Shown in pieces: positions 6,626 through 25,876 of a stretch of 47,361 bases of DNA. The stretch's first letter is position 1, and every line of letters starts with the position of its first letter. The position numbers and the translations under genes are program-made. A model generated the notes under the pieces. That model worked only from the letters and a program-made list of their open reading frames with translations. It was not told the origin of the DNA and ran no database searches. Origin of the DNA: an uncultured Oscillospiraceae bacterium (GTDB taxonomy: Bacteria > Bacillota > Clostridia > Oscillospirales > Oscillospiraceae); assembly GCA_951801655.1 (NCBI GenBank), contig CATONV010000012.1:1-47361 (forward strand), in the 5' to 3' direction.

Positions 6626-6628
6626 AAA

Positions 6629-7905: not shown

Positions 7906-7924
7906 AGGGTCAATTAAAGGGTCA
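7904..7924 (+). repeat. Direct repeat beside the attachment site
   Basis: AAAGGGTCA occurs at 7904-7912 and 7916-7924, 12 bp apart, directly after the integrase stop and about 100 bases from the tRNA end. Short direct repeats at this place are typical arm-type integrase or excisionase binding sites; the function is inferred from position. Confidence 0.35.
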
Positions 7925-7980
7925 GACTTCGGTGCAGAAATCAGCACCGCAATTTTTAAACGCTATTTCACGCTATGGAT

Positions 7981-8015
7981 AAGAAAATCCCCTGGAATCT
8001 TTACAATTCCAGGGG
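7981..8015 (-). terminator. Intrinsic terminator of tRNA-Gln
   Basis: On the minus strand a perfect 10-bp stem (7989-7998 with 8006-8015, seven-base loop) is followed by ATTTTCTT. It begins eight bases after the tRNA CCA end. Because it lies on the integrase side of the tRNA, it may have been supplied by the element at integration. Confidence 0.7.
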
Positions 8016-8022
8016 TATTCTT

Positions 8023-8096
8023 TGGCAGCCGGAGAAGGATTCGAACCCTCACAAACAGAGTCAGAGTCTGTCGTGCTACCCTTACACAATCCGGCT
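8023..8096 (-). tRNA. tRNA-Gln (anticodon CTG), element integration site
   Basis: The reverse complement folds into a full cloverleaf. The acceptor stem is AGCCGGA/TCCGGCT, the anticodon stem ACAGA/TCTGT with loop CTCTGAC (anticodon CTG, reading CAG), and the T-arm is GAGGG-TTCGAAT-CCTTC. The discriminator is G and CCA is encoded at 8023-8025. The 3' end faces the integrase, so the attachment core most likely lies in the T-arm/acceptor part (about 8023-8060). The matching copy at the other element end is outside the window. Confidence 0.93.
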
Positions 8097-11626: not shown

Positions 11627-12697
11627 TTACCGGGGCAGTTCGTCATACCTGCAGTGTACGCCGGATTGATTCATCATTCCCTGAACGCACCTGCCGTTGC
11701 AGCGGGTACAGCGTCGAATTCTCTCCGCCCTTCCGCCGCACACCTTGCTGACCCAGTCCGGATCCGCAATCAGCTGCCGGCTCATTGCGGCGCAGTCCAT
11801 ACGGGAAGAAGCGAGCTGTTCCTCAATAAAATCCGGGTCTGTCAGCCCTCCCACCCCGCATACCGGCAGCTCAGTACAACTGCGCACCACATCGCAGAAT
11901 TTCAAAAAACAGCCCTCCGCGCCGAAATAGGGGTGCCTGGCGGCAGGAATCACATCATCCAGCCCGCAGTGGTTGGCCAGCGTCACATGAAAGCTTGTCA
12001 CTCCGGCCCGTTCTAAAATCGGTACGAAGTCCGGAATCTCGTCCAGCAGTACCCCGGCATTCCCGTAATGGGGATTTTCCTGCCGGACGGTCAGCTTATA
12101 ATCAATCGGCAGACCGGGGAAGCGAGAGCGAATGGCACGCACGCACTGCGCTGCAAAGCGCGCTCTGTTCTCCACATTCCCGCCATAGTCGTCACGGCGG
12201 CCGTTAAAGATGGCAGAACACAGGCTGCCCAGCATACGGTCGCCCAAAACCTGAACCATGTCAAAGCCGGCCCTTTGGGCCAGCAGGGCGGCCTCGCCAA
12301 ACATCGCCGCATACTTTCTCAGCTCATCTGCGGGCAGGCGGAAGATATAGTCTTTCAGTTCGTTTTTGCCTATGGGTCGAAGTCCTCCTCGCCCGTCCGG
12401 CGCTGTCGAGTCGGACAAATACAGCTGTGCACAGATTCTGCATTGCGTTTCATGTACCTCCTCCGCCAGGCGGGCGTAGTAGGCAAAGCCGTCCGGCTCA
12501 TACAGCGACGGCTCCTTGGACCACGAGCTGACCGGCACATCGCCAATGATAATCATCGCACAGCCGCCAGAACCGATCGCCCTCAGCTTTTGGATCAGCT
12601 CCTCTTCGGAAAGCCCCATGGTAGTCGGCGCAAAAATAATCCGGTTTTTTAAAAGAATCCCGCCGTAGTTGATGGGAGACATGATGGTATTGTACAT
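11627..12697 (-). CDS. Old-yellow-enzyme-type FMN reductase with [4Fe-4S] site, lacking the C-terminal flavin/NAD(P) domain
   Basis: The 356-aa protein is the FMN TIM barrel of the 2,4-dienoyl-CoA reductase / enoate reductase / BaiCD group. It has the signature FNGRRDDYGGNVENR at about 165-179 and GVGGLTDPDFIEEQL near the phosphate-binding end. The C-terminal C330-x2-C333-x3-C337-x11-C349 spacing matches the [4Fe-4S] ligands of dienoyl-CoA reductase. Full-length relatives are about 650 aa because of an FAD/NAD(P) domain, absent here. Electrons must therefore come from a partner, and the adjacent BFD-like [2Fe-2S] protein is the obvious candidate. It is the last gene of the cluster and starts 18 bases after the BFD-like gene. 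It probably reduces an activated C=C bond; substrate unknown. Confidence 0.85.
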   Translation of the reverse strand: MYNTIMSPINYGGILLKNRIIFAPTTMGLSEEELIQKLRAIGSGGCAMIIIGDVPVSSWSKEPSLYEPDGFAYYARLAEEVHETQCRICAQLYLSDSTAPDGRGGLRPIGKNELKDYIFRLPADELRKYAAMFGEAALLAQRAGFDMVQVLGDRMLGSLCSAIFNGRRDDYGGNVENRARFAAQCVRAIRSRFPGLPIDYKLTVRQENPHYGNAGVLLDEIPDFVPILERAGVTSFHVTLANHCGLDDVIPAARHPYFGAEGCFLKFCDVVRSCTELPVCGVGGLTDPDFIEEQLASSRMDCAAMSRQLIADPDWVSKVCGGRAERIRRCTRCNGRCVQGMMNQSGVHCRYDELPR

Positions 12698-12715
12698 ATT
12701 CGCCGCCTCCGGAAC

Positions 12716-12928
12716 TCAGTTTTTTTCGCCGCCTCTTCGGCCGTCCCGCGCCGCAAGCGTGCGTCCGATTTCCCCTTTGATTTCGTCCGCGCACATGGAG
12801 CAGCTCCGCGCGCATCCGGTTCTCTGACAGACTTCTTCAAAGGTCTCCGCCCCCTGTTCCACGGCGTGCCTGATCGCTTCGGCGCCGACATTCATACACA
12901 GGCACAATATCCTTTCATCCATTTTCAT
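12716..12928 (-). CDS. BFD-like [2Fe-2S]-binding protein
   Basis: The 70-aa protein has the exact Cys spacing of bacterioferritin-associated ferredoxin-type domains: C9-x-C11, a gap of 32, then C43-x2-C46, with the family helix AIRHAVEQGAETFEEV between. The last 15 residues are basic and probably disordered. Its ATG overlaps the MFS stop (ATGA). BFD domains bind a [2Fe-2S] cluster and serve as electron carriers or as a module of larger oxidoreductases. Here it lies between a carrier gene and the FMN reductase that lacks its electron-input domain, so an electron-delivery role is the best inference. A second in-frame Met at residue 3 is an alternative start. Confidence 0.85.
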   Translation of the reverse strand: MKMDERILCLCMNVGAEAIRHAVEQGAETFEEVCQRTGCARSCSMCADEIKGEIGRTLAARDGRRGGEKN

Positions 12929-14160
12929 TCCCCCTGAAACAGGCCGTCCCGCCGCAGCAGCGGGACCATCCCAGCGGCAAACGCGACTAACAGGGCGATT
13001 GCAATATTCATAATCACGTCAAAGCTTCCCGCGGCGTTGTACAGCTGTCTGATTGCCGGCATTCCCACCAGAGAGCAGCAGCACATCAGCGTCTGGGTAA
13101 AGCCAATATATTCTGAGAGATATTGTTTCCCGAACAAGCTGATGGAGACCGTTACGCCATACAGCACGCACATCGTCGGCCAAAAGCCGAGCAAAGCGGA
13201 AAAAAGGACCGCCCCCATTGCGCCGCTGACCACCCTTATCCATACAAAAGCCGAAGCGGTGGCCGCCGTGCAGTACAATGCCACCAGCCTGAAGCCGCGC
13301 CGGTCGGCAATGATTCCGGCGCTCGCCTTGCTGAACATGTCCACAACCGCAAATATGGACAGGCAGGCGGCCGCCAGGTCCTCTGAAAATCCTTTTTCAA
13401 TCAAAATAGTAGACTGATACAGTGTAATCATCTGATAGATCACCGCAATCACAACCATACCAACGGCAAACAGCAGGAAGCGGGCCGTTTTTGCGCCCTC
13501 TTTCAGGGGAATTCCACTCTGCGGCTCCGGGCCTCTTCCATCCTGTAAAGTCTCGGATCGGGTATAAGGGGGCAGATTCATACAGCCAGGATCATTTTTC
13601 AGCAGGAACGCTCCCTGGACACATACGAAAATCACTATCAGCACGCCGATTACAACGCACGTCTCTCTCCATCCCCAGCTGCGGATCATCCGTCCGATCA
13701 GCGGACTGCCCAGCGCCGTTCCAATTCCGCTGGCTGACGCCACCAGGCCGGTCACCCTGCTGCGGCAGTCGGAAAACCATCTGGCAATTACCAGCTGCAC
13801 TGCCGCAGTGCCGGCGAATACCGTGGAGGCTCCCACCAGCATCCCTCCCGCGAACAGAAATTTCAATTCGTTCGCGCGGGAGAAGATCATGTACCCCGCC
13901 GCGCTCATCAGCCCGCCGAACACGACCAGCCCCTTGAGGGGAATGTATTTCAGCAGCTTATTCAGACCCGCGGCGGCCATCGCACTGCCAACGCCGTAAA
14001 AGATATAGACAATGGCAAAATCACCACTGCTGATCCCAAATGTCTTGGTCATGGACGTTACAAACAGCGAGATGCTGTAGTAACCCACGCCGCAGTTAAA
14101 CATCATAATCAGGAACAGGGACACTGCGGTAATCCAATACCAGACGCTGGTTCGTTTCAT
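12925..14160 (-). CDS. MFS transporter, oxalate/formate antiporter-like
   Basis: The 411-aa protein has 12 predicted hydrophobic segments with a central cytoplasmic loop around residues 195-220 (PPYTRSETLQDG...). The first half carries ARWFSDCRSRVTGLVASASG and GSPLIGRMIRSWGWR, typical of the OFA/monocarboxylate group of the major facilitator superfamily. Such carriers exchange or co-transport small carboxylates. As it lies in a cluster that also encodes a TRAP importer, it may export a product acid or act as an exchanger, but direction cannot be read from sequence. The start ATG at 14160 follows GGAGAAGT, 74 bases after the last decarboxylase-fold gene. Confidence 0.88.
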   Translation of the reverse strand: MKRTSVWYWITAVSLFLIMMFNCGVGYYSISLFVTSMTKTFGISSGDFAIVYIFYGVGSAMAAAGLNKLLKYIPLKGLVVFGGLMSAAGYMIFSRANELKFLFAGGMLVGASTVFAGTAAVQLVIARWFSDCRSRVTGLVASASGIGTALGSPLIGRMIRSWGWRETCVVIGVLIVIFVCVQGAFLLKNDPGCMNLPPYTRSETLQDGRGPEPQSGIPLKEGAKTARFLLFAVGMVVIAVIYQMITLYQSTILIEKGFSEDLAAACLSIFAVVDMFSKASAGIIADRRGFRLVALYCTAATASAFVWIRVVSGAMGAVLFSALLGFWPTMCVLYGVTVSISLFGKQYLSEYIGFTQTLMCCCSLVGMPAIRQLYNAAGSFDVIMNIAIALLVAFAAGMVPLLRRDGLFQGE

Positions 14161-14234
14161 ACTTCTCCTTTACTTTGCAAGCAAAAGCGGGAGAGGCAAT
14201 CTATGGCTGCCCCACACACAAAACGCAGCATGTT

Positions 14235-14999
14235 TTATTTCTGTTTCAGATCCCTGAGAACTCTCCAGCCCGAAGTGGAAAATCCGATTTCAAAATAGTA
14301 TGCGTCCATGATCTCATACTCCCAGTCCTTCATAAAGCCCCCCAGCTTCAAATGGCCCACGCCTTTGAACACGTCTCCCTTGATCTCAGAATCGTGGTAC
14401 TCAATCAGAACATCGTCAATCAGCTTTTCTCCCTCGGGATCCAGCATATCCTCAATCTGTCGGCGGCCGTAGCAGACCATATACTCCTCTTCCGGGTACT
14501 GAACTTTCTGCGTCAATTCAATCCAGCCGGAAATCAGTCTCTCGCCGTTCTGCCGAACTACCCCTTTGATCTTGCTGCCCACGTGGGGCGCATACAGCTT
14601 GCGCAGCCTCCCGGGAAAACGGTTGATGTGAACCTCAGCCAGCTCTGTCTGGTAGCCCAGCATGGGCCCCCGCTGAACGGCCCAGTCTCTGTCCTGCCAG
14701 ATCCTGGCCAGATAGTTTCCGGGCTTTCCTTCAAATTTACAGGGAATGCTGATCAGGCCCTCCTGCATGGTGGTGTAGTAGGGGTATACAAAATCTGCGG
14801 CGGCCTCGGCCCTTTGCGTCATGTCCTCATCATGGCCATAGTAGTCGGCCAGCATGATGGTCAGCTCCCCCTCCCGGTTCGTCTCGAAGGGAGGCGGCAG
14901 ATACCGGGCGATCACGCTCGGGTCAAGCTTCAGGCGCAGGGAGATAATATTCTCCGCAACATGGCGGCGGGCAGCCCCCTTCTCTTCATTCAGAACCAT
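14235..14999 (-). CDS. Acetoacetate-decarboxylase-fold protein, type B' (second pair)
   Basis: The 254-aa protein resembles the acetoacetate decarboxylase (ADC) family and is closest to the gene at 15831-16589. Both share DRDWAV (about 103-108 here), a following RFP, then SKIKGV/SRLKAV, at similar spacing. In clostridial ADC the Schiff-base Lys115 lies in PKKLGY; here the aligned stretch reads GPMLGY (111-116), so both lysines are absent. Its ATG lies 10 bases inside the end of the type A' gene, so the two are translationally coupled and may form a hetero-oligomer. Without the lysine it is probably not a classical decarboxylase; ADC-fold aldolase/dehydratases and cyclases exist. The alignment was made by eye. 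Confidence 0.75.
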   Translation of the reverse strand: MVLNEEKGAARRHVAENIISLRLKLDPSVIARYLPPPFETNREGELTIMLADYYGHDEDMTQRAEAAADFVYPYYTTMQEGLISIPCKFEGKPGNYLARIWQDRDWAVQRGPMLGYQTELAEVHINRFPGRLRKLYAPHVGSKIKGVVRQNGERLISGWIELTQKVQYPEEEYMVCYGRRQIEDMLDPEGEKLIDDVLIEYHDSEIKGDVFKGVGHLKLGGFMKDWEYEIMDAYYFEIGFSTSGWRVLRDLKQK

Positions 15000-15793
15000 T
15001 TCCAGTCCCCCTTTTCATCAATGGCAGTCACCTGAGAATCGCTGCCGTAACAATATCCAAAATTGTAGAAGAAGCCGTCCAGCGCCTCGATCTCTCCCAG
15101 ATCCAGCCATTTTCCATAGTAGTCCTCTCCGAATTTCAGTGTCGTCCGGCCGCGCCAGCAGTCGACGCCGTCCAGCCCGTTGGTAAACTCAAACAAGGGA
15201 ACGTCCTTAATAAACGGCTCGTTGTGATTGGCCGGGTCCTTCAGATAGCGGGCGTGGGCAAACCGCTTGCACCCGATGGGCAGCGCGTCGAAATCATAGG
15301 GCTCGGTCAGCTCAATAGACAGCTTGCACACCATCTCCCCGTGGGGGCGGTGGGAGATTCCATACAGCTTTGTACCCGCGCCAAGCCCGCTACGCCCTGT
15401 CAGCAGGGGCTGCACATCCGTCATCTGGGTATAGGTAATGTTGCGCAGTATACCCCGGCGCAGTCCGGCTGTCTGGCGGTCCAGGCAGACCTGAGACATA
15501 TAGCCGAACTCAAAGCCCCGGTAGACGGCGGGCATGCCAATGGCCAGCTCGTGGAATTCCGTCATGTCAGGGTCGGGCGGCTCGCCGTCCTCCACCTCCC
15601 GGAGGCCGGGCATGGCGGTATCCACCATGTAGACCCAGCCGATATCGCCGTCTCCCACCGGCTCCAGCGGCTTGGGCAGCATGCGCGCCTGAAGCTTTTT
15701 CGGGTCGGCGCGGAAGGGGACCATAATAAGACTTTGCGTCATCACATACTTTTCACCGGGCGCAGGATTTACCTTTGTGTTCAGTTCAGGCAT
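14990..15793 (-). CDS. Acetoacetate-decarboxylase-fold protein, type A' (second pair)
   Basis: The 267-aa protein is a clear paralogue of the gene at 16602-17399. They share PxPLEP, a VD-x-A-x-P region, REV-x-DGE-x-PDP-x-x-TEF (about 65-80), an AG-LRRG block (109-114) and a Tyr-rich C-terminal region ending YGS. The LRRG block occupies the place of the ADC lysine pair, so no Schiff-base Lys is seen there. The C-terminus extends by about 18 residues past YGS. It starts 37 bases after the type B gene and overlaps the type B' gene by 10 bases. Biochemical role unknown; it probably pairs with B'. Confidence 0.75.
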   Translation of the reverse strand: MPELNTKVNPAPGEKYVMTQSLIMVPFRADPKKLQARMLPKPLEPVGDGDIGWVYMVDTAMPGLREVEDGEPPDPDMTEFHELAIGMPAVYRGFEFGYMSQVCLDRQTAGLRRGILRNITYTQMTDVQPLLTGRSGLGAGTKLYGISHRPHGEMVCKLSIELTEPYDFDALPIGCKRFAHARYLKDPANHNEPFIKDVPLFEFTNGLDGVDCWRGRTTLKFGEDYYGKWLDLGEIEALDGFFYNFGYCYGSDSQVTAIDEKGDWKWF

Positions 15794-15830
15794 TGAATTG
15801 TCCCTCCGTTTCAGATTTTTGCCGTACCGT

Positions 15831-16589
15831 TTACAGAATACTGATCCCCTTGGCGTTGTAGCCCATCATAAACCAATAGGCGTTTTCCACCTCATAGGAA
15901 AACCTGCCGACCTCCTTTTCGTCCAACACCAGCTGAATGTCCCGGCCCTGCCAGAAGTCCCGGTATCGGATATCGGTGATGATCTCCCGGGTAACGTCGT
16001 CGCACACCACCTCTCCCCTGCGCTCCTCCACCAGCTGCATCACCTTGCGCAGGCCGATCCGGTTGGCAAAGAGAAAGTCAAAATTCAGGTCTCCGGCGGG
16101 TCTGTCCGCGTCGAATCCAAGGCTGATGGGCTTTCTCCCCTCGTCTATGGCCACCGCCTTCAGGCGGCTCCCCTCCTGAATGTGGTAAAATTCCATCATC
16201 TCTGTGGGAAACCGAGTGGTCCTGATATTAGCGTAAAACGCGTCAAAGCCCTTGATGCGGCTCTCCATCACTGCCCAGTCCCTGTCAAAGTAGCGGACGG
16301 CGTAGGTCCAGCCCCGGTGCCCCCGCGCCTCTGCCTCCACCAGAATGCCGGCCGAGTAATACTGGGAATAAATCGGATTGATAAAGGGATAGTCTGTACT
16401 CTTTTCGTCCCGCAGGGAGGCCTCCGACATCACAACGTACGCCCGGTCGGAGACAACCTGAAATCCCTCGGGCACCCGGTGGGCAAACTGCGCCGGATCA
16501 ATTTTCAGTTCCGCCAGAAAAACTGTCTCGCCAACCTTTCGGATATTGCCCACAATGGGCTCATAGGGTACATACTTAAAGTTTTGCAC
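15831..16589 (-). CDS. Acetoacetate-decarboxylase-fold protein, type B (first pair)
   Basis: The 252-aa protein starts 12 bases after the type A gene. It carries DRDWAV at about 102-107 and RFP at about 125-127 in common with the type B' gene. At the ADC active-site stretch it reads ESRIKGF (109-115): the position aligned with Lys115 is Arg111, while a Lys is present at 113, two residues displaced. A displaced lysine role cannot be excluded. The length is normal for ADC (about 245 aa). It has no signal peptide, so it is presumably cytoplasmic. The strict A-B-A'-B' order suggests A and B are partners. Confidence 0.75.
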   Translation of the reverse strand: MQNFKYVPYEPIVGNIRKVGETVFLAELKIDPAQFAHRVPEGFQVVSDRAYVVMSEASLRDEKSTDYPFINPIYSQYYSAGILVEAEARGHRGWTYAVRYFDRDWAVMESRIKGFDAFYANIRTTRFPTEMMEFYHIQEGSRLKAVAIDEGRKPISLGFDADRPAGDLNFDFLFANRIGLRKVMQLVEERRGEVVCDDVTREIITDIRYRDFWQGRDIQLVLDEKEVGRFSYEVENAYWFMMGYNAKGISIL

Positions 16590-16601
16590 TGTCTGTCCTC
16601 C

Positions 16602-17399
16602 TCACTTGGCGTCGCAGAGAAATTCTTCACTGCCATAGGTGTAGGCAAATGTGACGAAAAACGCGCGTTTGACCTTGATTTCCCCCAGGCTCTGGAACAG
16701 ACCGTACATCGTATCGCCAAATTCCAGCGTTCCGTCCCCCACATAGACCTTGCTCACATCAAACTTGGCCGGGAAATGATACAGGGACGCCTGCTGAATC
16801 AGAGGTCTGACGTCATCTCCATGGGCAAGGTCCGGCAGATAGCGCAGCTGCCCCCAGTCGAAAAAGTGCTTGTCCAGCCAGTCGGGCGAATGGATTTCCT
16901 TCACCTCAAGGCAGGCCCTGGCATACAGCGCGCCGTCGTTGGTGCAGGTGGCAAACATCCTGCTGCCGATACCGACATGTTCTTCGCCCTCCAGCATGGG
17001 GTGGTTGCGGGTACGGGAGAAGCTGTCGATCACGCTGCGGTTAAACCCCCGGCGCAGCGCGCCGGCGTAGTGGTCCAACAGAATCCAGGTGTTCATAATA
17101 TTGGGCTTGCCGTTCACCGTGCAGGACATGCCCAGCGCACATTCAGAAAACTCCGTCGTGTTGGGGTCCGGGATCTCCCCGTCCACTTCCCGCATGGGCG
17201 GAAAGGCGGAATCCACAAATCCGCAGGTCAAAATCACATCCCCGTCCTCGTCCGCCCGCGGCTCAAGCGGCTCGGGAAGAAACATTTTTTTGGCAGCCTC
17301 CATATTGGACACGGTAAAATCGAAATTGATAAAGTTTTGTATAATCGCGTGGGGGCAGCAGTTTTCCCGGGGCTTCATACCCAAAGTGTTTATTTCCAT
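16602..17399 (-). CDS. Acetoacetate-decarboxylase-fold protein, type A (first pair)
   Basis: The 265-aa protein begins MEINTLGMKPRENCCPHAII and then follows the ADC-family pattern: LPEPLEP, VDSAFPPMREVDGE-IPDP-TEF (62-84), YAGALRRGFNR (111-121), then a beta-rich C-terminal half ending TYGSEEFLCDAK. Residues 116-117 (Arg-Arg) fall where ADC has Lys115-Lys116. It is the first of the four family members, 26 bases after the TRAP permease. Its paralogue is the type A' gene. It could be a decarboxylase using another mechanism, a dehydratase/aldolase, or a structural subunit for B. Confidence 0.75.
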   Translation of the reverse strand: MEINTLGMKPRENCCPHAIIQNFINFDFTVSNMEAAKKMFLPEPLEPRADEDGDVILTCGFVDSAFPPMREVDGEIPDPNTTEFSECALGMSCTVNGKPNIMNTWILLDHYAGALRRGFNRSVIDSFSRTRNHPMLEGEEHVGIGSRMFATCTNDGALYARACLEVKEIHSPDWLDKHFFDWGQLRYLPDLAHGDDVRPLIQQASLYHFPAKFDVSKVYVGDGTLEFGDTMYGLFQSLGEIKVKRAFFVTFAYTYGSEEFLCDAK

Positions 17400-17425
17400 C
17401 TCGCAGTACCTGTCCTTTCTTTTCG

Positions 17426-19444
17426 CTACGCCGCCTGCGGCGCATCAGAACCGCCGGCTGATCTCTTCACGTTCAGTCTGTGGACAACAAAGGCCGCAAT
17501 GGTCAGCGCCAGGCCAATCAGCGTAATATCCGTTCTTGGGAACGCGATCAAAATACCGCCCATAGCGAACAGCAGTCTCTCAGGCATGTTGTACATCCGG
17601 CCCAGCTTTATCATATAGCCGCCGATTCCGCTGGCCAGGATAAAGGTGCCCAGGGCCACAAAGGCCATGTGATACAGACTCAGCAGGATATTGTTCCCCT
17701 GGAGCAAAATTGCGGGCTGATACAGAAAATACAGGGGCAGGAAATACACCACACAGCCCAGCTGACATGCCTTCCAGCCTGTTTTCATCGCGGGGGCGCC
17801 CGCCACGGAAGAGGCGACAAACGCGACCGTTGCCACGGGAGGCGTAATAACGGCCAGCAGCGGATAATAGATCAGGAACAGATGAACTGCCATCTTGTCC
17901 AGGCCGGTGCCCACCAGGGCGGGGGCGACGGACACGGCAAAGAACATATAGGCCACAATATCCATCCCCATCATGCCCATGAGATAGCAGGCCAAGATGG
18001 TAAGCGCCACCACTGACACAATACTCTCGCCGCCCAGGCGGGTAATGCTGGTGGCAAAGGAGGCGGCCATACCGGTGGTAATCAAACCGGCTATGGTAAA
18101 CGTAAACGGGAGCATCAGAGCGCAGATCTGCGTAATGGCCTTGCCGATCAGGGCACAGGCGTTGTACAGATTCCTGGGGGTAAGCCTGTTTTTGGGATCT
18201 TTGTCAAACCAGGACAGCACAATCAGCAGACCGGAGGCGTAATAGGGGGTAACCTCACCCCAGCGGAAATATACCAGACCGACGCACAGGAAGATCAGTA
18301 CAACAATCACATACCAGCCGTGTTTTATGGTCTCCCCCACGCGGGGGCACTGATCGGCCGGCAGACCCTTCATCCCGTGGTTGGCCGCGTAGGCGTCCAC
18401 CTGGAGCAGCAGGCCGCCGTAGTAGCATAGCGCGGGGAAAATGGCGGCCACCATGACCTGGGCATAGGTAAACCCGGACATGGCCACCATGACAAACACA
18501 ATGGAGCCCATGACAGGGGGCATCAGAATGCCGCCTGTGGCCGCCACCGCCTCAATGCCGCCGGCGTAGACGGCGTCGTAACCGGATTTTTTCATCGCCG
18601 GAATGGTGATTGAGCCGGAAGAAACTACGTTGGAAATGGGAGAGCCGGAGAGCATCCCGAAAAATGCGGAGGTCAACACGGCAACCTTGGCGGTGCCCCC
18701 CCGGTATTTGCCGCACAGAGCCTGGGCCAAATCGATAAAAAACGGTCCCGCTCCGGAACAGATCAGCAGGTTGGCAAACATTAAAAATCCGATCAGAATG
18801 GTGCCGGTGATGTTGCCGGGCAGGCCGGCAATTCCTTCTGAGCCGTAGCAGTAGTAGCTGAACAGCGTCTTCAGATCAAAACCGATTCCAGCCAGCATAC
18901 CGGGCAGGCGTTCACAGACCAGCGGGTACAGGCCGAAAAACACGCAGATGACAAAAAACGCTCTGCCCGCACCCCGGCGGACCATCTCCAGCAGCATCAG
19001 GGAATAGACCACTGCAATGGCCAGTTTAAAGGGATCGGGCGCTGGAACCCAGCCTACCATGTTGATCTCAATGCCGTGGACGGCAAAATAGAGAGGAATG
19101 ACCAGGGCCAGCAAGGTCAGAACATAGTCAAACCAAGGGATATGTTTCTCATATTTTTTGGTCGCCGGCGTCAGCAGAAACGCGCTGCATCCAAAGACAG
19201 CAAAAATGGTGTAATAGTAAGTGGTCGCAGACATCACGCCGAACCAGCGAATGTGCATCATGTAGTAGCACGCGATCAGAATGCCGATGATGGAGAGAAT
19301 GGTGAACCCATGCCGCACCAGCGGCGGCATCACGGCCAAACGAGAATTGTCCTTGTTAACTTCCTCTTCCGCTTCCGCCTTTCGTTTTTCGTCTCTCAGC
19401 TCGTCCAGTTCTTTGTCATGCAGCCTTTTTCGATTCAAAGCCAT
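17426..19444 (-). CDS. TRAP transporter fused permease (4TM/12TM)
   Basis: The 672-aa membrane protein fuses the small (DctQ-like) and large (DctM-like) TRAP subunits, as usual in TAXI systems. A charged N-terminus of about 35 residues is followed by roughly 16-18 hydrophobic segments. Family landmarks include GSPISNVVSSGSITIPAMKK, GGIEAVAATGGILMPPVMG and YPLLAVITPPVATVAFVASS. It uses the ion gradient to import the ligand delivered by the TAXI binding protein encoded just upstream. The 96-base gap between the two genes contains a strong hairpin, which may keep permease expression below that of the binding protein. Confidence 0.93.
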   Translation of the reverse strand: MALNRKRLHDKELDELRDEKRKAEAEEEVNKDNSRLAVMPPLVRHGFTILSIIGILIACYYMMHIRWFGVMSATTYYYTIFAVFGCSAFLLTPATKKYEKHIPWFDYVLTLLALVIPLYFAVHGIEINMVGWVPAPDPFKLAIAVVYSLMLLEMVRRGAGRAFFVICVFFGLYPLVCERLPGMLAGIGFDLKTLFSYYCYGSEGIAGLPGNITGTILIGFLMFANLLICSGAGPFFIDLAQALCGKYRGGTAKVAVLTSAFFGMLSGSPISNVVSSGSITIPAMKKSGYDAVYAGGIEAVAATGGILMPPVMGSIVFVMVAMSGFTYAQVMVAAIFPALCYYGGLLLQVDAYAANHGMKGLPADQCPRVGETIKHGWYVIVVLIFLCVGLVYFRWGEVTPYYASGLLIVLSWFDKDPKNRLTPRNLYNACALIGKAITQICALMLPFTFTIAGLITTGMAASFATSITRLGGESIVSVVALTILACYLMGMMGMDIVAYMFFAVSVAPALVGTGLDKMAVHLFLIYYPLLAVITPPVATVAFVASSVAGAPAMKTGWKACQLGCVVYFLPLYFLYQPAILLQGNNILLSLYHMAFVALGTFILASGIGGYMIKLGRMYNMPERLLFAMGGILIAFPRTDITLIGLALTIAAFVVHRLNVKRSAGGSDAPQAA

Positions 19445-19485
19445 TAGGGAACAACCTCCTCAATCAGCCCTGCAAAGGGCGCGTT

Positions 19486-19515
19486 GGGCGGAGTGCAAAG
19501 CACCGCACTCCGCCC
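19486..19515 (-). promoter_or_regulatory. Hairpin between TAXI binding protein and permease genes
   Basis: GGGCGGAGTGC at 19486-19496 pairs perfectly with 19505-19515 around eight bases. No U-run follows in the direction of transcription. Such stem-loops after binding-protein genes often stabilise the upstream message and lower downstream expression; that role is inference. Confidence 0.5.
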
Positions 19516-19540
19516 GTCCGGTGTGGGCCGCCAACTATGT

Positions 19541-20806
19541 TCAGAAGCCGGCGGCCAGGGCCTGGGCGATCTCCGCGTCGGACATGATGACCACGGGAGG
19601 CAGTTCACGGGCCTGCTTGAAGGCCTCCCAATAATCCAGCCACTCCTGATTCTGGGGATCAATGTTAATCCCGTCCGTATTAGCCTGCGCAATGCAGTCG
19701 CTGTAGGCCTCCATGTACAGGTCAATCAGTTTGATATTGTACTCCTGACGGGCATCATCCGCCTCGGTCCACTTGCCGATCTCTTTAAAATACCGGATGG
19801 TCCCTTCCGCGATGGGCACATAGGAGCGGTCTAAAACCTCCCGGGCATAGTCCACAGACCAATAGTAGGAGTAGGTCTCAAAGGCATCCCGAATCTCCTC
19901 CTGAGACTCAGCAAAGAACTTGACCAGATTGTAAATCAGATCCTGGTCGGCAGTTTCGGCGCTGATCCAGCCCCCGTCAGAGCCCCAGCCGTGCTTTCCC
20001 ACAGCGGCCTCGTTTCCAAAGCCGATTTTATTAAAGCTGTAGACAGGCTGCTTCGACTGGAACGCCGCGCACCACTCAGGGTACAGCTCTGGGTTGAAGT
20101 CCATAACCCGGATCCCCTGAGGGGCGGCAGAGGCCTCAATGATGGAGCTGGAGGTGGGTGTCACATAGGCGCACAGCTCCGCCGCGCCAGTTGTAACCAG
20201 CTTGGGCATTTCGCCGTAGGAGGAGCAGTAAATCCAGTTCATTTCGTCCACGGAGACGCCGGCGGCGGCGGCGAGAGACGCCTTTACATTCTCCATGGCG
20301 GAGTCGATGGTACAGGCAATCGGAGTATCCTTGGTAATGTCGGTAGGCTTTTCGATCTTGGAATCGCCGCGGACGAACATCACGCTGTTGGAGGCAAAAT
20401 CGGGCCATACCCAGCGGACCTGATAAGGGCCGCCTGTCTGTGTGGCGTAGCCGAACTTGGCGCCGATCAGAGTGGACACATCGCCCATCGTGTCATAGGT
20501 CATGAGAGTCTCGCCGTTTCTGACCCGCTGGAATTTGGTGGCGTTGGAGTCCTCCGGGAGCAGACGCACTTTGGTATTGCCGGTGCCCTCCAGAATGTTG
20601 GACCAGGCCAGCGTGCCCGCGTAGGCGGTGGTGCCGCTGCCGGTGATACTCAGCTTGACCATGTTGGGCCACTTAAAATCACCGCCGGAGGTCTGCGAGG
20701 CGCCTGCGCTGCCGCTGTTGGACTTGGCCGGGTTGGACCCGCCGCCGCAGGCCGCCAGAGAGAGGGACATCGCCAGTACAAGGACCAGAGATAACATCCT
20801 TTTCAT
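19541..20806 (-). CDS. TAXI-family TRAP transporter solute-binding lipoprotein
   Basis: The 421-aa protein starts with a lipoprotein signal: basic MKR, a hydrophobic stretch and lipobox LAAC with the lipidated Cys at about residue 20. A Gly/Ser/Ala-rich linker follows. The mature domain has the TAXI pattern (LSITGSGTTAYAGTLAW, TYDTMGDVSTLIGAKFGYA). TAXI proteins capture small carboxylates such as glutamate or 2-oxoglutarate and pass them to a fused TRAP permease. It lies directly downstream of the amidohydrolase gene. The ligand is not predictable from sequence but should be the cluster substrate or a relative. Confidence 0.92.
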   Translation of the reverse strand: MKRMLSLVLVLAMSLSLAACGGGSNPAKSNSGSAGASQTSGGDFKWPNMVKLSITGSGTTAYAGTLAWSNILEGTGNTKVRLLPEDSNATKFQRVRNGETLMTYDTMGDVSTLIGAKFGYATQTGGPYQVRWVWPDFASNSVMFVRGDSKIEKPTDITKDTPIACTIDSAMENVKASLAAAAGVSVDEMNWIYCSSYGEMPKLVTTGAAELCAYVTPTSSSIIEASAAPQGIRVMDFNPELYPEWCAAFQSKQPVYSFNKIGFGNEAAVGKHGWGSDGGWISAETADQDLIYNLVKFFAESQEEIRDAFETYSYYWSVDYAREVLDRSYVPIAEGTIRYFKEIGKWTEADDARQEYNIKLIDLYMEAYSDCIAQANTDGINIDPQNQEWLDYWEAFKQARELPPVVIMSDAEIAQALAAGF

Positions 20807-20846
20807 TGTTCTTTCTCCTTTACAATTTTATATTGCCGCCGCAAAA

Positions 20847-22271
20847 TCAGCATGGGCGTTTGACATATTTGCCGCTGGCCTGGCCCAGAATCTGCCCCTT
20901 TTCATAGACCTTTTTCCCCCGGAGTATCGTTATAACGGGCCATCCCTTCAGCTTAATGCCTTCAAAGACGTTGTACTCCTGTGCGGAGAAATCTTCGCCG
21001 GCACGGACCGTCTTTTCCATCTCCAGGTCAATCAGCGCGAAATCCCCATCGGCCCCCACCTCTATGCTGCCTTTTTGGGGCCAGGCGGCGTGGGCCTTGG
21101 CGGGATTTTCCGCCACCAGCTGTGCAATCTGCGGCAGCGACAGTCCATGTCTCAGGCCCTCGGAAATCATGAAGGGATACACCAGCGAGGTGCCGCCGAA
21201 GCCGCAGCAGGAGCCCCACATGTCGTCATCCAGCTTCAGCGCCTTGGGCGTCATGGCGTGGTCAGAGCCCACCCAGTTAATTTCGCCGTTTTTCAGGGCT
21301 TCCCACAGCGCCTCGTTGTCGGCCGCGGTCCGCAGGGGCGGATTGACCTTGGCGCAGTTGTTGCCCTGAAGCATCTCCCAGGTAAGGCCCAAGGCGTGGA
21401 GGGTACATTCCCGGCGTAGTTGAATGTCCGGATAGATTTTCAGCAGATCCCTGGTAGCCTGAAGGGCCTCTGCACTGGTGATGTGCAGAACATTCAGCTT
21501 GGCGCCGGTGGCGTTGGCCACAGTGCCCGCCTTCATGATGGCCACCCTCTCGGCCAGAGGGGGACGTGCTTCGCTGTAGGCTTGCAGTCCCTCCAGTCCC
21601 GCGGCATTCACCTTGCGGATAAAGGCTTTAATGATTTCGTCGTCCTCACAGTGGACGCTGACGGATACCGGCTTGTTTTTCAGCATGGTATTCAGCCGGG
21701 CCGCCTCCTCCATAATGTCGTACAGGTGCCCCAGGTCGTAACAGTCGGACATGGTGGGGGAGACGGTGGAATTCGCCCCCAGGTTCAGGCCCTTATAGAA
21801 CATAAAGTATTTAAAGGTGACAACCCCCTGTTCCACCAGCCATTCCATCTCCTTCACCTGGAGGTGATCCATGGGCGCCAGATGGAAACAGTAGTCACAG
21901 TAGGCATTTCCGGCGGCCTGTTCCAAGGCCTCTGCGTATATCTCATGGTAGGGCCCCGTCTTGTTCATGTAGTGGGCGCCGGTGCGGAAATAACTCATCA
22001 TGGTGGTCACGCCGCCGGTCAGCGCCGCCTTGCTCTCACTGCTGACATCCTGGTCCATGGGCGCGTAGATGCCGAAGTGGGTATGGCAGTCCACGGCGCC
22101 GGGCATTACGGTCAGCCCCTTGGCGTCCAGAATCTCCCTCGCCTCCTCATCGCCTATCTCCGTGAGGCTAAGAGAGGCAATTTTCCCATCTTTAACGGCA
22201 ATCGTGCAGTTTTCCACCCTGTCCGGCAGAACAACCGCCCCATTTTTGATTAACAGGTCATATTTTTCCAT
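20847..22271 (-). CDS. Dihydropyrimidinase/dihydroorotase-like cyclic amidohydrolase
   Basis: The 474-aa protein is a binuclear-metal amidohydrolase: DCHTHFG gives H63 and H65, TFKYF gives a probable carboxylated K154, with H207 (SVHCEDD), H263 (LHITSAEA) and D337 (GSDHAM). All metal ligands are present. Relatives hydrolyse ring amide bonds in hydantoins, dihydropyrimidines, dihydroorotate and allantoin; enamidase of nicotinate fermentation belongs to the same superfamily. No pyrimidine or purine genes are near, and the neighbours are a lyase and a TRAP importer. It more likely opens a cyclic amide or imide as an early step of this cluster's pathway. Substrate unknown. Confidence 0.88.
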   Translation of the reverse strand: MEKYDLLIKNGAVVLPDRVENCTIAVKDGKIASLSLTEIGDEEAREILDAKGLTVMPGAVDCHTHFGIYAPMDQDVSSESKAALTGGVTTMMSYFRTGAHYMNKTGPYHEIYAEALEQAAGNAYCDYCFHLAPMDHLQVKEMEWLVEQGVVTFKYFMFYKGLNLGANSTVSPTMSDCYDLGHLYDIMEEAARLNTMLKNKPVSVSVHCEDDEIIKAFIRKVNAAGLEGLQAYSEARPPLAERVAIMKAGTVANATGAKLNVLHITSAEALQATRDLLKIYPDIQLRRECTLHALGLTWEMLQGNNCAKVNPPLRTAADNEALWEALKNGEINWVGSDHAMTPKALKLDDDMWGSCCGFGGTSLVYPFMISEGLRHGLSLPQIAQLVAENPAKAHAAWPQKGSIEVGADGDFALIDLEMEKTVRAGEDFSAQEYNVFEGIKLKGWPVITILRGKKVYEKGQILGQASGKYVKRPC

Positions 22272-22322
22272 TTTAAACGCCCCTTTTTTGGTATTATTTG
22301 TAATCGTGTTCCTCTCAATTTC

Positions 22323-23219
22323 TCACCTGTGGTAGCGCGCATCCAGCTCTGAGGTGTCCAGATAGCGTTTTTCCAGCTCCTTGATCAGGGGCAGTCCAAC
22401 CAGATCTGTAAACTCAGAGAATTCAAAGATTTCCCCGTCCATAGAGCCTACGCTGTCGTTGACAATGGCGGTGTAAGCCTTTTCCAGCGCACGGGAGGCC
22501 GCAAACAGAGGCATAACCGGAATGCTGACCCGGGCCGCTCCCCACTCCTCCAGCTGCTTGATGGAAACTGCCGGTGTCTTGGAACCCTTTGCGTAGATCA
22601 TATTGATACTCACCGGGGCATCAATAGACTGAATAACCCGCTTGATATCCTCCACCTTCTCCGGGGCTTCCACAAAAATAAGGTCCGCGCCGGCTTTGGC
22701 AAAGGCGTTGCCTCTTCGAATCGCCTCATCAACGCCGTCCACCGCAATCGCATCCGTGCGGGCGTTGATTACAAAGTCTTTGTCCGTTCTGGCTGCCGCG
22801 GCGGCCTCAATTTTTTTCACAGCCTCCCCAAAGGGGATAATCTGTTTTCCCCCCATGTGGCCGCATCGCTTTGGAAAGAACTGGTCCTCCAAATTGATGC
22901 CTGCCGCGCCGGCCTCCTCAAATTCCTTGACCGCATAGTAAAGATTGATGGCGTTTCCAAACCCGGTATCTCCATCCGCCATCACCGGGATCCTCACCGC
23001 ACGGCAGATATTGCGGACCTGTTCCACCATTTGCGTCTTGGTCATGATACCCACGTCCGGCAGCGCAAGGCCGGCGCCCGCAAGGCCATAGCCGCTTACC
23101 TGCACAGCTTTTACGCCGCACTTCTCCGCAATTCTGGCGCTCAGCGCATCATAGACGCCGGGCATAACCAAAATCTCTTTGGCTTGGATCAGCTGTTTAA
23201 GCTGAGTCGTCCGATTCAC
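22323..23219 (-). CDS. Isocitrate lyase/PEP-mutase superfamily C-C lyase (methylisocitrate/dimethylmalate lyase-like)
   Basis: The 298-aa protein has a short-form ICL/PEPM barrel: ADGDTGFG at 81-88 (metal/substrate Asp), ED at 111-112, and the lyase motif KRCGH at 117-121 with catalytic Cys119. The Cys motif separates true 2-hydroxyacid C-C lyases from phosphonate-acting family members. Such enzymes cleave substituted malates, e.g. 2-methylisocitrate to pyruvate plus succinate, or 2,3-dimethylmalate to pyruvate plus propionate. It follows the hydratase small subunit by 30 bases, so the hydratase product is probably its substrate. Confidence 0.88.
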   Translation of the reverse strand: MNRTTQLKQLIQAKEILVMPGVYDALSARIAEKCGVKAVQVSGYGLAGAGLALPDVGIMTKTQMVEQVRNICRAVRIPVMADGDTGFGNAINLYYAVKEFEEAGAAGINLEDQFFPKRCGHMGGKQIIPFGEAVKKIEAAAAARTDKDFVINARTDAIAVDGVDEAIRRGNAFAKAGADLIFVEAPEKVEDIKRVIQSIDAPVSINMIYAKGSKTPAVSIKQLEEWGAARVSIPVMPLFAASRALEKAYTAIVNDSVGSMDGEIFEFSEFTDLVGLPLIKELEKRYLDTSELDARYHR

Positions 23220-23249
23220 ACAGTCTCCTCCTTTCTTCTGCTTTCCCCG

Positions 23250-23735
23250 CTATTCCAGTACAAAATCCCCCTTTTCCCTTAAAAAAGGGACCAACCCGCC
23301 GGCGGACAGAATATTTCGCATAATGGGCGAAAGTGTCTGACAGGCTATCTCCCGGGTCCCGTTCACGGTGACGATACCGGCTGACATGTCCACCTCAACC
23401 GTGTCGCCATACCGGATCGAGGAGGTGTCGCAGATCAGTGCCGGGAGGCCCACATTGATGGCGTTCCGGTAAAAAATCCTGGCGAAGGATTTGGCCAGAA
23501 TGGCGCTGATTCCAGCATACTTAAGCGCCAGAGGGGCCTGTTCCCGGGAGGAGCCGCAGCCGAAGTTGCTGCCTGCCACCAGCACATCCCCCTGCCGCAC
23601 ACGCTGGGAAAACAGCGGGTCCAGATCCTCCATGCAGTGGGCGGCCAACTCCTGAAAATCCAACGTCTTGGTGTATTTGCCGGCAATCACCAGGTCTGTA
23701 TTGATATGATCGCCATAGACCAACGCCTTTTTCAT
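23250..23735 (-). CDS. Aconitase-family hydratase, small (swivel) subunit, LeuD/DmdB-like
   Basis: The 161-aa protein matches the LeuD/HacB swivel domain: start DHINTDLVIAGKYT (residues 9-22), then GSNFGCGSSREQAPL at 55-69, and RNAINVGLPALI. Its ATG overlaps the large-subunit stop by four bases (ATGA), so the two are made in step. With the large subunit it forms a [4Fe-4S] hydro-lyase. In this family, substrate range is set partly by loops in this subunit; 3-isopropylmalate, homocitrate, citraconate and dimethylmaleate are all possible classes. No leuA or leuB is nearby, which argues against leucine synthesis. Confidence 0.88.
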   Translation of the reverse strand: MKKALVYGDHINTDLVIAGKYTKTLDFQELAAHCMEDLDPLFSQRVRQGDVLVAGSNFGCGSSREQAPLALKYAGISAILAKSFARIFYRNAINVGLPALICDTSSIRYGDTVEVDMSAGIVTVNGTREIACQTLSPIMRNILSAGGLVPFLREKGDFVLE

Positions 23736-24955
23736 TGCCTCATCACCTCCCTGGGATCAGTCAAAACGCCGGTAAGGGCCGAAGCCGCCGCCGTTACCGG
23801 GGAGGCCAAAAACACCCGCGCCTTGCTGTTGCCCATACGTCCCTTAAAGTTCCGGTTTGTAGTGGACAGCACCGTCTCCCCGTCCCCGGGGACGCCGCCC
23901 AGCGTACCCACACACAAGCTGCACCCCGGGGTGTTGATGGTCGCCCCGGCAGCCAGAAATGTTTGGATGTACCCTCTTTCGATGGCCCGCAGCAGCACCC
24001 GGTTAGAGGCCGGACAGACGATCATACGGACTGCGGGAGAAATCTTTTTCCCCTCCAAAATCCGGGCGGCCGCAGCAAGGTCTCCCAGTCGGCCGTTGGT
24101 ACAGCTGCCAAGATAAACGACATCAATCCTCTCCTGTCCCGCTTGCGTCACCGGCCTCACATTGTCCACTGTATGCGGACAGGAGACCACGGGAACCATG
24201 CTTGCCGCGTCATAGCGCAGTACTCTCTCGTAGACCGCATCCTCATCCGGAATCAGGCCGGGATCTTTCAGCGCCGGAATAAAAACGCCGTTTTTTCCGC
24301 CCATCTCAATGGTCATGTTGCAAACCGTAGTCGCTTCTTCCGCCGTAAAGCGGGCAAAGCCGTCCCCGGCAAACTCCACCGATTCATAGGAGACTCCGTC
24401 ACTTCTCAGATCTCCAATGATTTGCAGAATCACATCTTTGGCGCATACCCCCGCAGGCAGCTGTCCGGTCAGCTCAATCCTGGTAGTCTTGGGGACCATC
24501 AGCCAGGTCTTGCCGGTCAGCATGGCGGCCCCCAGCTCCGTGGACCCGACGCCGGTGGAGAACGCGCCCACCGCGCCATAGGAGCAGGTGTGGGAGTCGC
24601 CCCCCAAAATCAGGTCGCCCTCATGAACAAGTCCCTCCTCTAGCATAACCTGGTGACATACTCCGTAATTCTGATCGAAAAAAACACACTGCTGTTCCTG
24701 GCAGAACTCCCGAATCAGCTTGTGCAGCGCAGCGATTCTCTCATTGGGACAGGGGGTGGCATGGTCCAAAACAAACACGGTGCGTTCTTTTTTTTTCAGC
24801 TTTCTGCCCCCCATTCTCTCAAAGGCTTTCATCGCAATGGGTCCGGTGGTATCGCTGGCCATCATCACGTCCACATCGACAATCACGCAGTCTCCCGCAC
24901 GGACCGCCTGATGTGCTTTTCGCCCCAGCAGTTTTTCCGCAAAGGTCAGGCCCAA
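23732..24955 (-). CDS. Aconitase-family hydratase, large [4Fe-4S] subunit, LeuC/DmdA-like
   Basis: The 407-aa protein is a short HacA/LeuC-type subunit. The three cluster ligands are visible as C285 (GSCTNGR), C345 and C348 (TPGCSLCVG). GGDSHTCSYGAVGAFSTGVGS at about 118-138 is the substrate-binding loop. It hydrates an unsaturated dicarboxylate or isomerises a malate derivative. The start is TTG at 24955, supported by GGGGGAG at 24961-24967; no in-frame ATG fits. It is the first catabolic gene of the cluster, 123 bases after the regulator, with its own promoter and operator. Confidence 0.88.
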   Translation of the reverse strand: MGLTFAEKLLGRKAHQAVRAGDCVIVDVDVMMASDTTGPIAMKAFERMGGRKLKKKERTVFVLDHATPCPNERIAALHKLIREFCQEQQCVFFDQNYGVCHQVMLEEGLVHEGDLILGGDSHTCSYGAVGAFSTGVGSTELGAAMLTGKTWLMVPKTTRIELTGQLPAGVCAKDVILQIIGDLRSDGVSYESVEFAGDGFARFTAEEATTVCNMTIEMGGKNGVFIPALKDPGLIPDEDAVYERVLRYDAASMVPVVSCPHTVDNVRPVTQAGQERIDVVYLGSCTNGRLGDLAAAARILEGKKISPAVRMIVCPASNRVLLRAIERGYIQTFLAAGATINTPGCSLCVGTLGGVPGDGETVLSTTNRNFKGRMGNSKARVFLASPVTAAASALTGVLTDPREVMRQ

Positions 24956-24974
24956 GTTTAACTCCCCCTCTTTT

Positions 24975-24991
24975 GTTCCGTATAGCGGAAT
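24975..24991. promoter_or_regulatory. Palindromic operator candidate at the hydratase promoter
   Basis: GTTCC-GTATAGC-GGAAT contains the perfect palindrome TTCCG-N5-CGGAA (24976-24990). An overlapping second palindrome GGAAT-GTT-ATTCC spans 24987-24999. The same GTTCC-N6-CGGAAY layout recurs at 25878-25894 in front of the IclR gene. It overlaps the -10 box and start region, a repressing position. The likely binder is the IclR-family regulator next door. Confidence 0.6.
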
Positions 24992-25019
24992 GTTATTCCA
25001 TTTTAATCTTTTTGATCAA
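24990..25019 (-). promoter_or_regulatory. Promoter of the 13-gene catabolic cluster
   Basis: On the minus strand TTGATC (25019-25014), an 18-bp spacer and TAACAT (24995-24990) precede the hydratase gene. The box match is moderate, but the position between operator and upstream hairpin supports it. Confidence 0.5.
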
Positions 25020-25047
25020 ACTTCAAAGGGTTTCCCCTTTGAAGTTT
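25018..25047 (-). terminator. Perfect 13-bp stem-loop after the IclR gene
   Basis: AAACTTCAAAGGG (25018-25030) and its exact complement (25035-25047) form a hairpin with a four-base loop, 31 bases past the IclR stop. On the transcribed strand it ends in TTT and then GATCAAAAAG, so termination would be weak. It overlaps the -35 box of the next promoter and probably reduces read-through from the regulator. Confidence 0.5.
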
Positions 25048-25078
25048 AAAACAGATCGGCCCTTAAACAGGCGGCGTC

Positions 25079-25876
25079 TCAGTTCACAGAGTCGTATCCC
25101 AGTTTCAAGGAGATATTCTTTGCCGCTTCCAGCAGCTTTGTCCGATACAGCGCGACATTTTCGTCCGCAAACAGGTAGACGGGCCCGGATATGGTAATGG
25201 ACGCGACCACCTGCCGGGTATAGTCGTACAGCGGGGCGGAAACCATAGCCGTGGACGGGTCACGCTCCCCCTTGGTAACGGAATAGCCGTCCTTCAGGAT
25301 CTGCTCCAGTTCTTCTCTGAGTCTCTCCGGATCGGTTACCGTATTGTCGGTGTATTTTTCAAATTTTGTCACCGCAAAATACTGCTCCTGCACTTCCCGG
25401 CCTGCATAGGCCAGCAGAAGCTTGCCCGCGCCACAGTACAGCGGGTGCCGGGCGCCCAGATATGAAAATCGCTTTACATACTCTGTGCCCTCCACCTGGC
25501 CGACGCATCTGCGCTCAAAGCCGTCCCGGATATAGAGGTTGCAGGTCTGCTGGGTTTCACGGCTGAGCCGTTCCATATCCGCATGCGCCACACGCTGCAA
25601 GCTGTTGCCCGCGTGGGCAATACTCCCCATCTTGATGATTTCATATCCCAAGCGGTATTTTCCCGTCTGCGGGTCCTGCACCACCATGTTCCGCTTTTCC
25701 AGCGTGGTCAGGATACGGTAAGTGGTCGTTTTGGGGAGATTGGCCTGAACACATATCTGTGCCAGAGGCAACTCCTGCGACTCGAAAGAAAATACCTGAA
25801 GGATATCGACCATCCGGTCTACCGCCCGGACGGAGTCCTTCGACTCCGAAGTACTCGCACCTTGTTTGTTCTTCAT
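25079..25876 (-). CDS. IclR-family transcriptional regulator
   Basis: The 265-aa protein has the IclR layout: a winged helix-turn-helix at about 18-80 (RMVDILQVF, LPLAQICVQANLPKTTTYRILTTLE) and a GAF-like effector domain with GAGKLLLAYAG around 150 and GYSVTKGERDPSTAMVSAPLYDYT around 195-220. IclR proteins bind short palindromes and sense organic acids or aromatic compounds. It is transcribed in the same direction as the 13 genes that follow and is the only local regulator, so it is the likely controller. It probably regulates itself too, since a matching palindrome overlaps its ribosome site. Confidence 0.93.
   Translation of the reverse strand: MKNKQGASTSESKDSVRAVDRMVDILQVFSFESQELPLAQICVQANLPKTTTYRILTTLEKRNMVVQDPQTGKYRLGYEIIKMGSIAHAGNSLQRVAHADMERLSRETQQTCNLYIRDGFERRCVGQVEGTEYVKRFSYLGARHPLYCGAGKLLLAYAGREVQEQYFAVTKFEKYTDNTVTDPERLREELEQILKDGYSVTKGERDPSTAMVSAPLYDYTRQVVASITISGPVYLFADENVALYRTKLLEAAKNISLKLGYDSVN

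Follow-up and report, generated by a model that had tools for sequence, protein, structure and literature searches.

Positions 1-47,361 of contig CATONV010000012.1 of an uncultured Oscillospiraceae bacterium (assembly GCA_951801655.1), hereafter the window, carry a cluster of 14 genes, all on the minus strand, in which an iclR gene is followed from position 25876 down to 11627 by 13 co-directional genes. We give about even chances to the reading that this cluster is a catabolic unit under IclR control whose imported substrate is a nitrogen heterocycle, either a cyclic imide itself or converted to one. The type of pathway, in which an imide-like ring is opened and the product is hydrated and cleaved, is moderately supported. 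What we observe, and build on, is the gene content, its conservation in relatives, the retention of active-site motifs, and the recurrence in other genomes of the genes for ring opening through to cleavage. The gene set is conserved and mobile-looking, in a gut bacterium related to Flintibacter, and no description of it was found in the part of the open-access literature that we searched, in line with the initial annotation of this DNA, which knew of no characterised pathway with these genes.

Results

The unit recurs in two relatives, complete in one and, in the other, in the part that the contig holds. ADC-A, one of four cluster proteins with the acetoacetate decarboxylase (ADC) fold, was found in 3 of 149 related genomes searched, its own genome counted; the two other carriers are Flintibacter muris DSM 110149 (G022) and one uncultured metagenome-assembled genome (MAG; G036). 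F. muris has all 14 genes in the same order, at 62-94% protein identity, plus one extra gene. The MAG contig starts inside the gene for the TRAP permease, and the order is preserved from there onward (identities of 93% for this permease, 87-94% for the four ADC-fold genes, 67% for the MFS carrier, 57% for the BFD ferredoxin and 72% for the reductase). The extra gene, located between the MFS and BFD genes in both relatives, encodes an isochorismatase-family amidase, and the window's cluster has none. Such conservation supports reading the cluster as one co-inherited catabolic unit, the single system that the initial annotation had proposed. The gene glmS, which adjoins the last cluster gene in the window, is not beside the cluster of either relative (over 14 kb and 5.6 kb downstream), so a move of the unit or a change of its surroundings must have taken place; on the upstream side the relatives' contigs stop too early to compare. 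Of 398 sampled phylum genomes, a single one other than its own matched ADC-A, and weakly (25% identity), and PF06314 matched in 14 of 398, own genome counted. A pattern scan of contigs for more carriers matched 33 stretches, two of which encode a relative, both the known ones; the patterns were narrow, so absence elsewhere is not demonstrated. Co-occurrence in other genomes, on which the initial annotation had hung its single-system idea, thus holds for the complete set inside the genus; in the loci opened from outside it, none of the ADC-fold, BilR-like and MFS genes accompanied the core genes.

What does recur more widely is a module of cyclic amidohydrolase, isochorismatase-type amidase, aconitase-type hydratase and C-C lyase, accompanied by varying transporters and lyases. 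Two further phylum genomes, one Shinella plasmid and two haloarchaeal plasmids have it as well, and this recurrence in unrelated genomes supports the amidohydrolase-hydratase-lyase logic put forward earlier for this cluster. Both phylum genomes hold lyase, LeuC, LeuD, amidohydrolase and amidase together, the last two at 34% and 59% identity in G259 (stretch L068) and at 34% and 38% in G171 (stretch L070). The G259 stretch additionally has an IclR gene, an old yellow enzyme (OYE) that is not of the BilR type discussed below (202.5 bits against a cut-off of 425) and, further out, a TRAP-permease match; its further genes we read as a branched-chain-type ABC transporter and an electron transfer flavoprotein. 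In the G171 stretch we read the further genes as TRAP components of the DctPQM type and one protein resembling MmgE/PrpD; for this last label no NCBIfam family matched at 1e-20. An amidase search of plasmids gave 200 matching records, four of which were opened: the Haloferax and Halorubrum plasmids carry amidase, amidohydrolase, CoA transferase, HMG-CoA lyase, LeuC and LeuD, and the Shinella plasmid carries lyase, AcnA, amidohydrolase and amidase. The amidohydrolases of these three plasmids are 31-33% identical to that of the window. Because the same set comes with differing lyases and hydratases, it appears to be the chemistry that is kept, rather than one operon. The Shinella plasmid also has an annotated hemC with an open frame about 8 kb from the amidohydrolase-amidase pair (L075, 17405-18337), which we take as coincidence.

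Among 299 genomes of the phylum, 37 matched the lyase at 1e-40 (own genome counted), and in the 20 stretches examined from 19 of them, LeuC lies near the lyase at 1e-15 in 16 and LeuC with LeuD in 15. One nicotinate-like lyase stretch (L064) has a weak, 96-residue amidohydrolase match, and the amidohydrolase is found in none of the 15 other stretches, that is, those not chosen via the lyase. Stretch L052 (G169) combines IclR and a TRAP permease with a lyase that shares 62% identity with the window's, and its 20 kb contain no hydratase match; it may be a second system acting on the substrate of this lyase.

Cyclic amides and imides are ring-opened by enzymes of the dihydropyrimidinase type, amidases of the isochorismatase type act on half-amides and carbamoyl groups, and cyclic-imide catabolism consists of an imidase followed by a half-amidase. 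The relatives likewise pair a dihydropyrimidinase-type hydrolase with an isochorismatase-type amidase; the differences from that pathway are that here a hydratase and a lyase follow and that the substrate is presumably a substituted, unsaturated imide. Motif blocks of the window's amidohydrolase include HxH, K, H, H and D, which we take to be its binuclear metal ligands, and catalytic or metal motifs are retained in the lyase and in the relatives' amidase as well. Among the best 25 of 70 matching NCBIfam models, the amidohydrolase passes no curated cut-off, its top matches being allantoinase (250.8 vs 631) and dihydropyrimidinase (238.7 vs 393.25). Solved relatives of the amidase include N-carbamoylsarcosine amidohydrolase and 3ot4/3uao, 3uao being presumably maleamate amidohydrolase. 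These likenesses would also suit ureide, hydantoin or pyrimidine catabolism, in which the amidohydrolase would open a hydantoin or dihydropyrimidine and the amidase cleave the N-carbamoyl product, while hydratase and lyase served another branch. We consider this improbable: hydratase and lyase accompany the amidohydrolase-amidase pair in unrelated genomes, and an amino-acid product would not explain that.

LeuCD-type enzymes hydrate substituted maleates, and lyases of the isocitrate lyase (ICL) superfamily cut the resulting hydroxy acids. The window's hydratase falls within the LeuCD/HacAB family (TIGR02086, TIGR01343 and TIGR02087 over cut-off) and below the homoaconitase equivalogs (NF040615, 410.2 vs 550; NF040604, 185.8 vs 230). 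In its small subunit, a loop with a residue that we take to be linked to substrate specificity reads YTKT where homoaconitase has YLRT, K in place of R; G259 also has K, and the haloarchaeal versions have V, like the isopropylmalate/citramalate isomerase 3vba. The K hints at a third carboxylate on the substrate. Solved relatives of the lyase include methylisocitrate lyases and 2,3-dimethylmalate lyase, with petal death protein 1zlp as the best match. The lyase is like the PrpB of the methylcitrate cycle in superfamily and KRCGH motif, but it stays below the PrpB equivalog (TIGR02317, 246.2 bits vs cut-off 354.4) and the cluster has neither prpC nor prpD.

In the scheme that we propose, the compound would be taken up via the TAXI-TRAP importer and/or the MFS carrier, and the reductase related to BilR, supplied by the BFD ferredoxin, would prepare the ring together with the ADC-fold proteins, a putative role. 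The amidohydrolase would then convert the imide to a half-amide, from which the isochorismatase-type amidase, present in both relatives and lacking in the window, would release ammonia to leave an unsaturated di- or tricarboxylate. The LeuCD/HacAB-type hydratase would add water, and the ICL-superfamily lyase would split the hydroxy acid, giving a carboxylate together with a 2-oxoacid, for example pyruvate. All of these reactions, and the substrate, we infer. Reduction as the first step, as the initial annotation had it, is not supported.

Anaerobic nicotinate fermentation of the Eubacterium barkeri type is what we take to be the nearest described system, with the locus L056 as its look-alike. 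That pathway also finishes with a LeuCD-type hydratase and an ICL-superfamily lyase and has its ring opened by an amidohydrolase, all present here; yet no B12 mutase, PrpF isomerase, molybdenum hydroxylase or hydroxyisobutyrate-type dehydrogenase is seen in the cluster, which adds TAXI-TRAP, four ADC-fold proteins and a BilR-like reductase. PrpF-type isomerases (PF04303) and the molybdenum nicotinate dehydrogenase (PF02738) matched in none of the three cluster-bearing genomes (G000, G022, G036), and no B12-binding match was seen among the cluster proteins scanned. L056, by comparison, has a B12 protein, PrpF, LeuCD, lyase, a 386-aa amidohydrolase and a HIBADH-type dehydrogenase, and its loop reads YAMS. 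With the PrpF and molybdenum hydroxylase markers missing, we rejected nicotinate fermentation as the identity of the cluster, and even a variant of it seems very improbable.

Two narrower forms of the cyclic-imide reading name a substrate, and their probability is contained in that of the whole. One begins with a six-membered imide from a pyridine carboxylate: a citrazinate-like glutaconimide would give cis-aconitamide and then cis-aconitate, and hydration and isocitrate-type cleavage would follow. The enzyme types match, the loop K would suit a third carboxylate, and the opening of a cyclic imide is known from fungal nicotinate breakdown, where a cyclic imidase is followed by an amide hydrolase (PMC9304392). 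The authors there liken the imidase, HxnM, to the allantoinase PuuE and HpPgdA, which is not the group of the present amidohydrolase. The same absence of PF02738 from the three genomes means that ring hydroxylation would have to occur elsewhere, and we regard this form as rather improbable.

The other form begins with the reductase, a close paralogue of BilR. In a BLAST-based alignment and tree (25 loci plus the window; L017, which is the window itself, L019, L021, L022 and L098-L109 were left out), it belongs to a clade that is sister to the HGDR BilRs of congeners, at 58-60% identity. A genome search with NF045592 scored the three cluster copies at 472-485 bits and four congener BilRs at 532-567 bits. 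The motif reads LGDR in all three cluster copies, HGDR in all four congener BilRs and HGDH in the more distant L081, which exceeds the NF045592 cut-off despite its HGDH, so that passing this cut-off alone is no guarantee of the HGDR motif. BilR is reported as the gut bilirubin reductase, with HGDR as its motif, in PMC10769871, and sequences without HGDR were excluded in PMC13252198; with LGDR in its place, we rejected assigning the cluster reductase as BilR. Set beside the bilQRS-encoded BilR of PMC10769871, the cluster enzyme is alike in clade, identity, GDR and NF045592 score, and differs in its Leu for the His of HGDR, its BFD ferredoxin for BilS and its catabolic-operon setting. Where a short BilR would have a flavodoxin-like BilS partner, and often BilQ, the cluster has the BFD gene instead; such partnership is not universal, as bilR occurs alone in R. 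gnavus (PMC10769871). The initial annotation had the families of the FMN/Fe-S reductase and ADC-fold proteins right but missed the likeness to BilR, the loss of lysine described below and the relatives' additional amidase. Around congener bilR, bilQ- and bilS-sized open reading frames (named from position and size only) flank the gene in L110 and L112, and in L110, L111 and L112 no more than about 3 kb separates it from a gene for a TRAP permease, with 27-31% identity to that of the cluster; the contig of the fourth congener, L113, is too short to judge this. In L112 (4593-5450) and L113 (2807-3646), the gene just upstream of bilR has as its neighbour a member of the PEP-mutase/ICL family that shares about 33% identity with the cluster lyase.

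Kinship with BilR raises the possibility of bile-pigment or other tetrapyrrole ring catabolism. The substrate would be pyrrole-derived, a hematinic-type methyl-carboxyethyl-maleimide or a related pyrrolinone, and its diacid, methyl-homoaconitate, would pass through 2-methylhomoisocitrate to pyruvate and glutarate. The reductase's sister position and its score above the NF045592 cut-off are consistent with this, as are the K where homoaconitase has R, the methylisocitrate-lyase-like lyase, and the description of BilR as a gut enzyme (PMC10769871). Weighing on the other side are LGDR rather than HGDR, the lack of BilS, and a cut-off that L081 also passes; G259 shares the loop K, yet its one scanned OYE is not a BilR, and the haloarchaeal loops have V. 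No paper joining hematinic acid, imide, bacteria and degradation was found in the open-access literature searched. The idea is attractive but leans on one paralogue and one loop residue, and we think it unlikely. Slightly less likely still is its fullest version, a gut anaerobe feeding on rings that remain from heme or chlorophyll pigments. In it, a bilin-derived pyrrole unit would be turned into methyl-carboxyethyl-maleimide by the BilR-derived reductase and by ADC-fold proteins without the lysine, joined in a complex as two tandem A/B pairs; imidase and half-amidase would yield methyl-homoaconitate, from which a hydratase like HacAB and a lyase like PrpB would produce pyruvate and glutarate.

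The four ADC-fold proteins belong to their superfamily by fold. Aligned to 5upb, ADC-A reads TE in place of the KK pair, which we take to be the position of the catalytic Schiff-base lysine in acetoacetate decarboxylases, the matching position of C has no lysine either, and by profile alignment B and D also have none there. Since this lysine is lacking in all four, we rejected the known ADC reaction for them, and with it the earlier suggestion that they reshape an intermediate by that chemistry. Structure prediction of ADC-A was unsuccessful (pLDDT 31.5). On plasmids, a search for ADC relatives gave seven weak matches (best 28% identity) and none for ADC-B, and core genes were not matched at 1e-15 in the three neighbourhoods opened among these seven; at one plasmid locus (L027), a gene annotated as isochorismatase lies close to the ADC gene. 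In the window the ADC genes alternate (14235-17399) as two pairs of a B/D-type and an A/C-type gene, an order that suggests duplication of a heteromeric pair.

The arrangement of the genes agrees with the initial annotation, which described an iclR gene and 13 closely spaced co-directional genes (Table 1): intergenic distances in transcription order are 123, -4, 30, 51, 40, 96, 26, 12, 37, -10, 74, -4 and 18 bases, below 100 bp at 12 of the 13 junctions. Its family calls are backed by Pfam and NCBIfam except for ADC-D, which has no Pfam match. The transporter is of the TAXI-TRAP kind, with TIGR02123 and PF16868 passing their cut-offs and TIGR02122 falling short.

Table 1. Genes and leader elements of the cluster in the window
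Feature	Coordinates	Strand	Evidence
IclR-family regulator, first gene of the unit	25079..25876	-	PF01614 and PF09339 over cut-off; F. muris copy 81% identical
Candidate operator or RNA hairpin in the leader of leuC, a 24-base inverted repeat CTTCAAAGGG..CCCTTTGAAG	25021..25044	-	kept in Flintibacter
Palindrome GGAAT-N3-ATTCC between iclR and leuC	24987..24999	-	same position in Flintibacter
Aconitase/LeuC/HacA-type hydratase, large subunit	23732..24955	-	NF001614, TIGR02086, TIGR01343 over cut-off
LeuD/HacB/DmdB-type hydratase, small subunit	23250..23735	-	TIGR02087 over cut-off; best solved relative 2pkp (homoaconitase small subunit)
ICL/PEP-mutase superfamily lyase, KRCGH catalytic motif	22323..23219	-	PF13714; motif alignment
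Cyclic amidohydrolase, dihydropyrimidinase/hydantoinase/allantoinase group	20847..22271	-	PF01979; metal-ligand positions kept
TAXI-type TRAP solute-binding lipoprotein	19541..20806	-	PF16868 over cut-off; TIGR02122 below (47.2 bits vs cut-off 84.35)
Fused TRAP permease	17426..19444	-	TIGR02123, 471.6 bits vs cut-off 320.65
ADC-fold protein D (type B/D)	16602..17399	-	no Pfam ADC match
ADC-fold protein C (type A/C)	15831..16589	-	PF06314, 45.3 bits; no lysine pair
ADC-fold protein B (type B/D)	14990..15793	-	PF06314, 38.7 bits; 94% identity to both relatives' copies
ADC-fold protein A (type A/C)	14235..14999	-	PF06314, 70 bits; aligned to 5upb and MppR; TE where ADC has KK
MFS carrier, nearest monocarboxylate and oxalate/formate types	12925..14160	-	PF07690; every NCBIfam match below cut-off
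BFD-type [2Fe-2S] ferredoxin, 70 residues	12716..12928	-	PF04324 over cut-off
Short OYE reductase, BilR paralogue, LGDR motif, C-terminal cysteine cluster	11627..12697	-	NF045592, 474.7 bits vs cut-off 425; motif and tree

Between iclR and leuC, the 24-base inverted repeat has 1 match in the window against 0.00 in shuffles, the pattern being derived from the window itself; its conservation in Flintibacter comes from a single contig (L009 and L023 are the same), and the MAG contig does not extend to the site. The palindrome GGAAT-N3-ATTCC resembles what we take to be an IclR box, and its count is not significant (3 with at most one mismatch vs 1.94 expected). Both leader elements are compatible with local control by the IclR protein. 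A promoter-like TTGACA-17-TATATT (11 of 12 consensus positions) lies ahead of iclR at 25950-25922, in a region where matches to this type of consensus number 15 vs 8.6 expected. G+C content is 0.56 in the cluster vs 0.60-0.62 in the flanking genes on either side. Elsewhere in the window, at 6727-8096, the end of a phage-type integrase gene (PF00589) and a tRNA-Gln gene lie about 120 bases apart, and G+C is 0.51 over positions 1-8000 vs 0.60-0.62 further on; given the integrase near the tRNA and the low G+C, this region looks like an integrated element.

Discussion

Several observations weigh against a cyclic-imide pathway. At 1e-15, the amidohydrolase and the amidase occur together in just 2 of the 20 lyase stretches. 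The amidase matched in 7 of the 299 phylum genomes at 1e-25, and the core was not seen around it in five of these (one has LeuC and LeuD), nor on the Roseomonas plasmid, one of the four opened. Links to imidases by sequence are at family level only. No half-amidase matched in the window's own genome at E <= 0.001 (the assembly is 89% complete), so step four of the scheme, the release of ammonia, would need another enzyme there. The four ADC-fold proteins and the reductase lack an assigned step, and the OYE could reduce exactly the double bond that the hydratase requires.

The ADC-fold and BilR-like members are the surprising pieces of this system, and with four ADC-fold proteins devoid of the lysine, a well-known fold would be put to a new use. 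If the module is what we take it to be, its four genes would form a signature, usable for genome mining, by which the catabolism of imide-type rings could be recognised in Bacillota, Alphaproteobacteria and haloarchaea. And if the substrate were derived from bile pigment, gut bacteria could use the rings as food, beyond merely reducing the pigment.

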